The translations under genes and the position numbers were made by a program. Shown in pieces: positions 481 to 4,022 of a stretch of DNA of 64,000 nt (positions are counted from its first letter, which is position 1; each line of letters starts with the position of its first letter). Origin of the DNA: Methanomicrobium sp. W14 (GTDB taxonomy: Archaea; Halobacteriota; Methanomicrobia; Methanomicrobiales; Methanomicrobiaceae); assembly GCF_017875315.1 (NCBI RefSeq), contig NZ_JAGGMM010000002.1, forward strand, positions 186,001 to 250,000, written 5' to 3'. Below the pieces are notes generated by a model. That model did not search any database, had not been told where the DNA came from, and worked only from the letters and a program-made list of their open reading frames with translations.

Positions 481-1416
481 TTATAAAGTGTTACTGTCCG
501 GCTGTTGCTCTGACATCTTCAGTCCGAGTTCGCATGATATTTTTTTGAGTTCCGAAAGTTCAGTTTCCGGGTTTTTTAAGACGGCTCTTACTATATCGGG
601 GTAATGGTTCAGGAGACAGTTTTTGCATGACCATATTTTTTTTCCCTGCGATACCGAGTCCACCCATTCACCGAGCTCCTCGTCACCGCAAGGGTAATGC
701 GGGCAGTAGCACAGTTCGCATCTCTGCCCTTTGAAATGGCACGGATAATACTGGCATTTCCTCCTCTGCCACAGGTTCATCTTCAGTCCGTCTTTTGTGG
801 TGAATATGAAAAATGACGGCTCATCCGCTTCAATAACACCGTCGTACCTTCTGATTGACTCGGTCACTCCGTTCTTTACGCATGTGTAGACTTTGTCGCC
901 GCATCCGGTATAGGTCCCTGCAGATTCGTGGAATTTTCTGTTTTCTGACCCTTGTCTGTCATAAATTACGACGACTTCGTCTGTCGTCGTGCCGGTGAAG
1001 CTGTACCCCGCTGAAATTAGAGCGTCGGCCTTTGCCTCGGTTGCAGTTATTATCGTCTCGAGAAGGGCACCGTCGGATAATGCCTCCCTTGAATGGATTA
1101 TTATATTGATAGTGTTCGGACCTTTCGGGTTAGGATTTGAGACACCTGCCGTGACAAATACCGTGATGTATTCGTATGACATTATGCAGAGGTTCTTCAT
1201 CCCGACGGCAGTCAGCATTCCAAAAAAATCGTCTTTGTATCCCCTTTCACTGATTATATTTCTGAGAAGCCTGTACGGGTCATCTTCGTTGAAGTCACGC
1301 GGAACAGTATGGTTTACGACTGTTGTGATATCAGAAATTCCACCATTTATTCCTGTGCTGGCGGCTTTAAAAGAGCCTCTTATAAAAAGAGTATTTTTGT
1401 GAAGGAAATACTTCAT
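481..1416 (-). CDS. cbiZ: Adenosylcobinamide amidohydrolase CbiZ with C-terminal Cys-rich domain
   Basis: CbiZ removes the aminopropanol side chain of adenosylcobinamide so that methanogens can salvage incomplete corrinoids through adenosylcobyric acid. The N-terminal two thirds match the family: GINGGISDITTVVNHTVP near the start, then a segment with VTAGVSNPNPKG and a Thr-rich GYSFTGTTTDEVVV stretch. A cysteine-rich extension follows (CQYYPCHFKGQRCELCYCP and CKNCLLNHYP), probably a metal-binding small domain known as a CbiZ fusion partner. ATG at 1416 is chosen because it overlaps the stop of the upstream gene as ATGA, indicating translational coupling. A longer open frame exists upstream but lies inside that gene. 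Confidence 0.85.
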   Translation of the reverse strand: MKYFLHKNTLFIRGSFKAASTGINGGISDITTVVNHTVPRDFNEDDPYRLLRNIISERGYKDDFFGMLTAVGMKNLCIMSYEYITVFVTAGVSNPNPKGPNTINIIIHSREALSDGALLETIITATEAKADALISAGYSFTGTTTDEVVVIYDRQGSENRKFHESAGTYTGCGDKVYTCVKNGVTESIRRYDGVIEADEPSFFIFTTKDGLKMNLWQRRKCQYYPCHFKGQRCELCYCPHYPCGDEELGEWVDSVSQGKKIWSCKNCLLNHYPDIVRAVLKNPETELSELKKISCELGLKMSEQQPDSNTL

Positions 1417-1775
1417 GCTACGTTGTAGTGCGTGCGGTCTTTTAATTCCTGCTGTTTGCCATGGTTCCATCCTGCAACGTCTGCCAGGTAGCCCGTTACC
1501 CTTGATACCTGCGATACGTCGTGTGAGCCGCATTCAGGGCAGATTGGCTGGCCGCAAAGCGGGCAGTACTCTATCTTCTCTATTATGCTGTGCTGGCAGT
1601 TGCAGTGGTCAAGAGGGCACATAATCTCAAGATTTGTCTCCCCGCAGCAGGGGCATGGTGTTTCGTCAACGATATGGTTGCAGGTGTGGCATTTGTAGCG
1701 TCTCTCTTCAACCGGGATATCTTCAAGGCTTTTGTATTTTTTTGCGAGTGCAAGCTGTTCCTCAGTCCATATCAT
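1413..1775 (-). CDS. Stand-alone NrdD-type glycyl-radical and zinc domain protein (120 aa)
   Basis: The protein resembles only the C-terminal end of anaerobic ribonucleoside-triphosphate reductase NrdD. It carries several CxxC-type pairs (CHTCNH, CPCCG, CPLCG, CPECG) followed by SRVTGYLADVAGWN, where Gly95 sits in the glycyl-radical motif RVTGYL, and by GKQQELKDRTHY. The roughly 500-residue catalytic barrel is missing, and no reductase gene is adjacent. It could be the radical-bearing piece of a split enzyme, or a spare radical domain in the way YfiD/GrcA serves pyruvate formate-lyase; both are inference. It is the first gene of a two-gene operon with cbiZ, with an ATGA overlap. A TATA-like AGATTTAAT lies about 25 bp upstream. 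Confidence 0.7.
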   Translation of the reverse strand: MIWTEEQLALAKKYKSLEDIPVEERRYKCHTCNHIVDETPCPCCGETNLEIMCPLDHCNCQHSIIEKIEYCPLCGQPICPECGSHDVSQVSRVTGYLADVAGWNHGKQQELKDRTHYNVA

Positions 1776-2442: not shown

Positions 2443-3078
2443 TCATCGGCGGATGAAGGCATATTTTTCTGCTTCTTTTGCGGGGTCTTCGGCTGAATAT
2501 ATGGAGCGGCCGACGATCATCCCGTCAATTAAAGGAGCTATGATGTGTGCGTCCCCGCCCTGTGCACCTACCCCGGGGGAGAGGATCTTTCTGCTGCCGA
2601 CAATCTCTCTCAGGGCTTTTACACGTTCAGGCCTCGTTGCGGGTGCAATTATCCCGTCCGCCCCGCATTCAACTGCCATTCCTGCTATCTTTTCGGCATT
2701 TTCACCGGAAAGAAATTCCAGAGCGCCGGGATGGCTCATCTCGCTTACTACATAGCATTCCCCGCCGGCGTCGTGCGCCGCTTCGACGCATGCGATAACG
2801 GAGTCGCTTCCGGTAAAGCCGTGCGTGATTATTCCTGAAAAACCGGCCTCAAAGACATGCCCTGCGATAAGGCTGTTTGTATTCGGGATGTCTGCGACCT
2901 TGAAGTCGGCTATAAGCGGAAGGTCAAAATGCAGAAGTTCTCCTGCTATTGAAAGCCCTGCTCCAAGTACAAGAGGATACCCTATTTTTACGGCATCAAT
3001 GTACGGTGCCGTTTTTTCGGTAATCTCTATGGCGTCCTCTCTTGTCAGGACATCAAGGGCCAGGATAAGGTCTGTCAT
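2443..3078 (-). CDS. pyrF: Orotidine 5'-phosphate decarboxylase
   Basis: Catalyses the last step of de novo UMP synthesis, OMP to UMP plus CO2. The archaeal short form is clear: LILALDV at the N-terminus, the active-site segment DFKVADIPNTN with the catalytic Asp/Lys array, and the phosphate-loop segment LSPGVGAQGGD followed by MIVGRSIY. At about 211 residues it is a normal single-domain length. ATG at 3078 is preferred; a TTG at 3084 overlapping the upstream stop is possible. A GAGG element about 7 bases upstream fits the ATG. It lies directly downstream of dys and is likely co-transcribed with it. Confidence 0.95.
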   Translation of the reverse strand: MTDLILALDVLTREDAIEITEKTAPYIDAVKIGYPLVLGAGLSIAGELLHFDLPLIADFKVADIPNTNSLIAGHVFEAGFSGIITHGFTGSDSVIACVEAAHDAGGECYVVSEMSHPGALEFLSGENAEKIAGMAVECGADGIIAPATRPERVKALREIVGSRKILSPGVGAQGGDAHIIAPLIDGMIVGRSIYSAEDPAKEAEKYAFIRR

Positions 3079-3080
3079 CT

Positions 3081-4022
3081 TCAATCCTCAAGTCTTTCCA
3101 GAACGGCTGCAACAATTAAGGGAAGGTTTATAGTGGCATCGCCGTATACGGTCTGTCCCTTTGCCTCTCCTGTAAGCTTTCCCCAGGACTTTGCCTCGTC
3201 AAGTGTCGCCCCGGAAAGCCCTCCCAAATCAGGTCTGTCACCTGTAAGCTGGACTGCATAGTCAAAGCCGTTAGGTGTCATTAGCATGCTCTGGAATATG
3301 TAGTTTTTGGGCACTCCTCCGCCGACAAGCATTGCACCGGCCTTTTTTGCGGCAAAGCACCTGTCGATTAATTTTGACATGTCTTTGAATGCGTCTACTG
3401 TGATTCCCCTTGTCTGGTTGAAAAGCCAGTACTGAAGGCCGATCATCGAGTCCTGGAGGGCCGGGCAGAACACGGGAATATCTTTTTTTGCGGCCTCTGC
3501 AAGTATTCCGGTGTTTAAATGCTCGCCGATAAGATGTGTTATATCCTGAATCGAGTACTTCTGTGATTTTTCAAGGCTTTCAAAGACCTCCTGCAAAAAG
3601 CTCTCAAATTTTATGAAAGCGTCGTTAGGGAGGAATATGTCATATATCCTGTTTATCTCCTCTTCACGGAGAAGCACGTCGTCGCAGATTTCAGTTCCGT
3701 GGTAGTGTTTGCACCCGATTGCTTCTATAGTATCGTGCGTCAGGTTGGCGCCCGTGGATACCAGTATATCGATGTGGCCCCTGTCTATTAAGTCAGAGAC
3801 TATTCCGCCCATTCCTCCGGGGACCATTGCTCCTGCAAGTCCAAAGAACTTGACGGCGTCTTTGTCCCTGAGCATATTTTCATATATATTTACGGCCCGC
3901 CAGAGAGAGCCGGCGTTATACGCACGCGTATTTCCGTACTGTTCCACGAGTTCGTTTACGGTCATGCCGGGTCTTACCTTTGCCTGAATTACAGGCGTGC
4001 CGCATAAATCTTCTGGTTTCAT
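3081..4022 (-). CDS. dys: Deoxyhypusine synthase
   Basis: Transfers the aminobutyl group of spermidine to a lysine of archaeal initiation factor 5A. The sequence shows GAMVPGGMGGIVSDLI, the NAD-site segments VSTGANLTHD and CKHYHGTEICDD, and the catalytic-lysine segment MLVGGGVPKNYI, all typical of the family. The open frame extends 54 residues further upstream, but that part is unlike the family. ATG at 4022 (MKPEDLCGTPV) gives the usual length of about 313 residues and has a TATA-like CAATATTAG at a promoter-like distance. The gene ends within a few bases of pyrF. Confidence 0.92.
   Translation of the reverse strand: MKPEDLCGTPVIQAKVRPGMTVNELVEQYGNTRAYNAGSLWRAVNIYENMLRDKDAVKFFGLAGAMVPGGMGGIVSDLIDRGHIDILVSTGANLTHDTIEAIGCKHYHGTEICDDVLLREEEINRIYDIFLPNDAFIKFESFLQEVFESLEKSQKYSIQDITHLIGEHLNTGILAEAAKKDIPVFCPALQDSMIGLQYWLFNQTRGITVDAFKDMSKLIDRCFAAKKAGAMLVGGGVPKNYIFQSMLMTPNGFDYAVQLTGDRPDLGGLSGATLDEAKSWGKLTGEAKGQTVYGDATINLPLIVAAVLERLED

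Follow-up and report, generated by a model that had tools for sequence, protein, structure and literature searches.

The window, by which we mean the whole 64,000-nucleotide stretch of Methanomicrobium sp. W14 DNA that was analysed, carries a gene of 1413-1775 (stop included) on its (-) strand, for a protein of 120 residues that has no catalytic barrel but bears the C-terminal features of the anaerobic (class III) ribonucleotide reductase (RNR) NrdD. The gene, its parts and its neighbours are as follows.

481..1416, (-): cbiZ, adenosylcobinamide amidohydrolase with a cysteine-rich zf-like domain (Pfam PF01955, PF04071)
1413..1775, (-): predicted free-standing glycyl-radical subunit of a class III RNR (ORF, Pfam NRDD, TIGR02487, orthologue alignment)
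1425..1574, (-): glycyl-radical domain proper, residues 68-117, homologous to the NrdD C-terminus (Pfam NRDD 503-562; PDB 8p23)
1485..1502, (-): RVTGYL radical loop, with the codon of the invariant Gly95 at 1491-1493
1530..1565, (-): zinc site of the radical domain, C71xxC74-x4-C79xxC82, invariant in 38/38 orthologues
1590..1691, (-): N-terminal extra region absent from NrdD, with C29, C32, C41, C44 and a C53/C60/H62 cluster, all invariant residues
1816..1823, (-): possible archaeal TATA box, TTTAAATA, about 45 nt ahead of the start codon (ATG) of the small gene, picked out by eye
2443..3078, (-): pyrF, orotidine-5'-phosphate decarboxylase, the conserved upstream neighbour (NF010386/TIGR01740 over cut-off; synteny)
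3081..4022, (-): deoxyhypusine synthase, the next upstream neighbour, kept in most genomes (PF01916; synteny)

The order deoxyhypusine synthase-pyrF-small gene-cbiZ is kept, with few exceptions, in families f1-f6, and cbiZ adjoins the small gene across these families. The coupling to cbiZ that a preliminary description of the locus had pointed out was recovered both in the window and in 54 of 71 distinct loci, where the stop codon TGA of the small gene overlaps the ATG of cbiZ (ATGA), and the identity of CbiZ was confirmed by Pfam. In the window, CbiZ carries the cysteine-rich domain (PF04071) as a small C-terminal fusion. A 91-aa ORF at 1980-2255, divergent from the small gene, occurs in near relatives only and is without a family match.

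By hmmscan, residues 62-116 of the 120-aa protein correspond to positions 503-562 of PF13597 NRDD (E 4.2e-14, a score twice the curated cut-off) and the protein also matches positions 540-580 of the TIGR02487 NrdD model, while seven further NrdD models match it at their own C-terminal ends only; its radical loop is matched by NRDD/NrdD families only and not by the PFL-type domain. The best solved relative is the Prevotella copri NrdD (PDB 8p23, residues 697-736, E 1e-6), whose authors place the zinc site and, after it, the radical loop in this region (PMC11226230). Within a gap-free alignment of 38 orthologues Gly95, its R92-x-T-G-Y96 context and C71, C74, C79 and C82 are all invariant, and Gly95 aligns with the glycine of the NrdD motif RITGYL. 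The zinc-ribbon cysteines, the RVTGYL motif with Gly95 and the missing barrel are thus as first described. Distinct from NrdD's own zinc site, the N-terminal ~65 residues contain C29xxC32...C41xxC44 and the C53/C60/H62 cluster, and give a weak match to the DZR double zinc ribbon that lies below the Pfam cut-off. The AF2 model of the protein is of low confidence (pLDDT 67) and returned no significant PDB match. Nine ortholog pairs gave dN/dS values of 0.03-0.12 (a tenth pair was saturated), and on these ratios the small gene is under purifying selection.

A whole-genome search with PF13597 (the genome is 99% complete) yielded just the window protein and one distant barrel, which is located on a different contig:

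L001 1414-3615, (-), match G000:C1:415204-416928: NrdD barrel, 733 aa, matching NRDD 1-510 only

This protein scores 475 bits against TIGR02487 (cut-off 326), and the top 36 PDB matches of its AF2 model (pLDDT 79) are all class III RNRs; across the barrels Cys186, the finger-loop residue Cys416 and the NxN flap do not vary. It ends 28 residues past the last barrel strand, with a C-terminus that reads ...TQIGYFAFTRDLTVSLKQFTEYRKNDSPAHSKMSALSGGIAT, and has neither zinc cysteines nor a radical loop with its glycine, at the point where the corresponding strand of sister full-length NrdDs leads directly into the zinc ribbon and radical loop. A frameshift or lost frame after the barrel was rejected, since the DNA past its stop holds no continuation of the radical domain. 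In the barrel model the tail, the finger loop and the NxN flap are among the least confident stretches, and in the P. copri enzyme disorder of the flap goes together with disorder of the radical domain (PMC11226230), a resemblance that is suggestive only. The genome also encodes the activase NrdG2 (C1:227738; TIGR02495, 161 bits, cut-off 131) and, separately, a NrdJ in one frame. Both genes that the preliminary description had proposed to look for, an nrdD without the C-terminal glycyl loop and an nrdG, are therefore present, no full-length NrdD is found in the genome, Gly95 is conserved, contrary to what that description had named as evidence against a radical role, and the suggestion that the small protein is a split NrdD subunit is strongly supported. 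Judged from their sequences, the barrel and the 120-aa protein very probably make up one complete class III RNR split over two loci.

The same arrangement recurs across the Methanomicrobiales. An NRDD match was found in 174 of 199 genomes of the order, 169 of which also have the small protein (counted as present at E <= 5e-11); the remaining five are drafts of 71-93% completeness, including G086 (93% complete), in which barrel and NrdG2 were present and the small protein was not detected. Within the order, the NRDD match of a barrel goes no further than about profile position 510, and all 50 barrels that were extracted end 20-34 residues past the last strand, with the radical motif absent. Outside the order, among the matches listed from a 392-genome sample of the phylum, NRDD reaches 560-562 in one frame. 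Since 169 of the 174 genomes carry the small protein and all 50 barrels are without the radical domain, the split is not a strain defect. In genus g21 of family f6 (probably Methanocorpusculum) barrel, small protein and NrdG2 were all undetected, each of the six genomes checked has a class II RNR, and the weak small-protein matches (E 3e-4 to 7e-4) are likely to be chance matches of zinc ribbons. The NrdG2 model itself was found in 167 of the 199 genomes. An NrdG2 orthologue directly adjoins full-length nrdD in sister genomes, where several loci (e.g. L114, L115, L117, L122-L124) have the gene order grx-nrdD-nrdG; in the split order grx-nrdD has been kept together in 49 of 50 cases, with nrdG and the radical domain elsewhere.

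Some genomes of the order show further variations. G001, of the window's family, is the only one seen to have, besides the split pair, an additional full-length NrdD (L165, G001:C1:588703-594373; 569 aa, NRDD 1-560), which is too short for the N-terminal extension seen in split barrels. G034 has two split barrels 15 kb apart (C1:285076-286791 and 300796-302511) and a single small-protein match. Very long frames (~1170-1740 aa) with NRDD matches broken at ~53 and ~260 occur in G052:C15:622793-624358, G084:C7, G116:C2, G009:C1:2135849-2137879 and others, and a 1100-aa NrdJ frame was also seen in Methanomicrobiales; these are probable inteins, at two nrdD sites and one nrdJ site, in several members of the order. 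Because of the broken HMM matches in such frames, protein trans-splicing by a split intein was considered as a way of joining the two halves, and was rejected because neither the barrel tails, at 20-34 aa, nor the small protein could accommodate an intein half.

The strongest argument that the split enzyme works comes from nine genomes at least 90% complete (two of them single-contig), which have barrel, small protein and NrdG2, and in which no class I or II RNR was detected by PF02867 and TIGR02504; provided that the searches are correct, these genomes seem to have no RNR other than the split enzyme. We propose, with a probability of roughly 0.9, that the two polypeptides form a class III RNR in which the 120-aa protein, carrying the radical, is an obligate subunit and the 733-aa barrel the catalytic one. 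The proposal draws on sequence comparison, namely the complementary halves, their conservation and co-occurrence, the single origin of the barrels (see below) and the absence of any other detectable RNR in some genomes.

The preliminary description had also offered the small protein as an analogue of YfiD/GrcA that replaces a damaged radical domain; in this reading it would stand in for the oxygen-cleaved domain of an intact NrdD. YfiD acts in trans with cleaved PFL, and spare parts for other glycyl radical enzymes have been suggested (PMC8683613); moreover, several genomes outside the order encode free-standing relatives of the small protein as well as a full-length NrdD. A repair domain would, however, need a full-length NrdD, of which the PF13597 search found none in this nearly complete genome, and neither the NrdD barrel of this genome nor any other barrel extracted has a radical domain of its own, G001 being the only genome of the order seen with an additional full-length enzyme. 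Since the NrdD of this organism has no radical domain to replace, the spare-part reading is unsupported here and we regard it as very improbable. Replacement of damaged domains does fit the relatives in neighbouring families, where the free-standing domain stands alongside full-length NrdD.

That the neighbours of the small gene are cbiZ and pyrF, and not nrdD, might speak for a radical subunit of a different glycyl radical enzyme, or for a structural zinc protein that no longer bears a radical; yet the domain is NrdD-type, Gly95 and its loop are conserved, the protein co-occurs with the barrel and NrdG2, and without it, the NrdD of genomes in which this is the sole RNR would be left lacking a radical glycine, so that we hold out very little prospect for either variant. 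A lone case would look just the same if it had arisen by frameshift, misassembly or decay into a pseudogene fragment, but the conservation is order-wide and includes complete genomes, the dN/dS values are low (0.03-0.12) and the domain is not continued downstream of the barrel stop, which makes an artefact scarcely credible.

As to the origin of the two-polypeptide enzyme, the split barrels group as a single clade (SH-aLRT 90) whose neighbours are the full-length NrdDs of families f8, f21 and f31, and in this phylogeny the truncated barrels have a single origin. Sequence identity between the barrel and sister full-length NrdDs is 68-71%, and families f8, f21 and f31 also give the best scores for the radical domain. 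With an HMM of the small protein, a few genomes outside the order (f8, f31) proved to encode free-standing relatives, 88-131 aa long, in addition to the one or two full-length NrdDs that they keep:

L186-L196: free-standing NrdD-type radical-domain proteins outside the order (G411, G383, G237, G339, G222, G228, G269, G333, G401, G446, G241)

The copy in a further f31 genome, G446, has an internal stop and the G241 copy is without the usual end. The zinc loop comprises 4 residues in the small protein and in the five outside relatives compared, and ~10 in 30 full-length NrdDs, none of which has the 4-residue loop; this common loop is the sole argument for placing the small protein and the outside free-standing domains in one family. 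On the 55 columns of the radical-domain tree, a common origin of the Methanomicrobiales and the outside free-standing proteins and a transfer between them are both tenable. Beside a full-length NrdD, these relatives look like candidate spare parts for class III RNR, and they may show how the split arose. We suggest tentatively, at somewhat less than even odds, that the domain was first a spare part for full-length NrdD, as still seen in some neighbouring families, and that in the Methanomicrobiales ancestor NrdD subsequently shed its radical domain, relying from then on for good on the separate one; alternatively, the split domain may have been passed sideways.

In the mechanism that we propose for the two-polypeptide enzyme, NrdG2 would cleave S-adenosylmethionine and take a hydrogen from Gly95 of the small subunit, which would dock non-covalently in the open mouth of the barrel, where the C-terminal domain of an ordinary NrdD sits. 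The glycyl radical would then generate a thiyl radical on Cys416 of the finger loop, which would start ribonucleotide reduction together with Cys186, and the glutaredoxin-like protein encoded beside the barrel would probably re-reduce the active site. The N-terminal cysteine clusters may provide a docking surface that replaces the lost covalent tether, although this is a guess and the weakest step. That the subunit docks, that the radical is passed on, and when activation takes place relative to docking are points that we infer.

Published accounts (PMC4520616, PMC4390871) present class III RNRs as homodimers in which one and the same polypeptide also stores the glycyl radical; by homology the present pair is a two-polypeptide class III RNR that departs from this single-chain feature of the family. 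With class III NrdD (P. copri, PDB 8p23; Methanosarcina-type) it shares the barrel with finger-loop cysteine and NxN flap, the NrdD-type zinc ribbon, the RxTGYL loop, the NrdG2 activase and a glutaredoxin-like gene beside nrdD, whereas its radical domain is a separate protein at another locus, with a 4-residue zinc loop (as against ~10) and an extra N-terminal cysteine-rich region, and its barrel finishes in a short variable tail. The split class II NrdJa-NrdJb of Pseudomonas aeruginosa is likewise an RNR on two polypeptides, both of which are needed (PMC4520616), and its C-terminal zinc-finger part is also on the small subunit (PMC9669993); NrdJab differs in being B12-dependent and encoded in one operon, with a small part that does disulfide exchange and carries no radical, whereas here the barrel is class III and the genes lie on different contigs. 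YfiD/GrcA and T4 Y06I (PMC8683613) are likewise small free-standing glycyl-radical domains acting in trans with a barrel, but they are PFL-type and rescue a damaged full-length enzyme, whereas the domain studied here is NrdD-type and its barrel never has one of its own. Class I RNR (NrdA with the radical-carrying NrdB; PMC4390871) also keeps barrel and stored radical on different polypeptides, but with a metal/tyrosyl radical, dependence on oxygen and an unrelated radical subunit. Crona and colleagues (2015) considered split NrdJ to be the one case of a split RNR found outside viruses (PMC4520616). The literature that we searched, mostly outside subscription journals and preprints, held no report of a split NrdD, and an earlier notice is possible.

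Finally, a whole archaeal order appears to run its class III RNR with the radical on a separate, possibly replaceable subunit. It would mislead to annotate the 120-aa gene as a piece of NrdD, or to take the barrel for the whole of NrdD. Across the order a gene for cobamide salvage is coupled to that of an RNR subunit, and through this coupling the choice of RNR class, II or III, could be tied to the supply of B12. The pair offers a natural system in which to ask how the radical domain docks, whether the activase acts on the free domain and whether radicals supplied in trans ease recovery after oxygen damage. If the domain did begin as a spare part, the radical subunit would be exchangeable, and oxygen damage would cost the cell a 13-kDa protein and not the whole enzyme.
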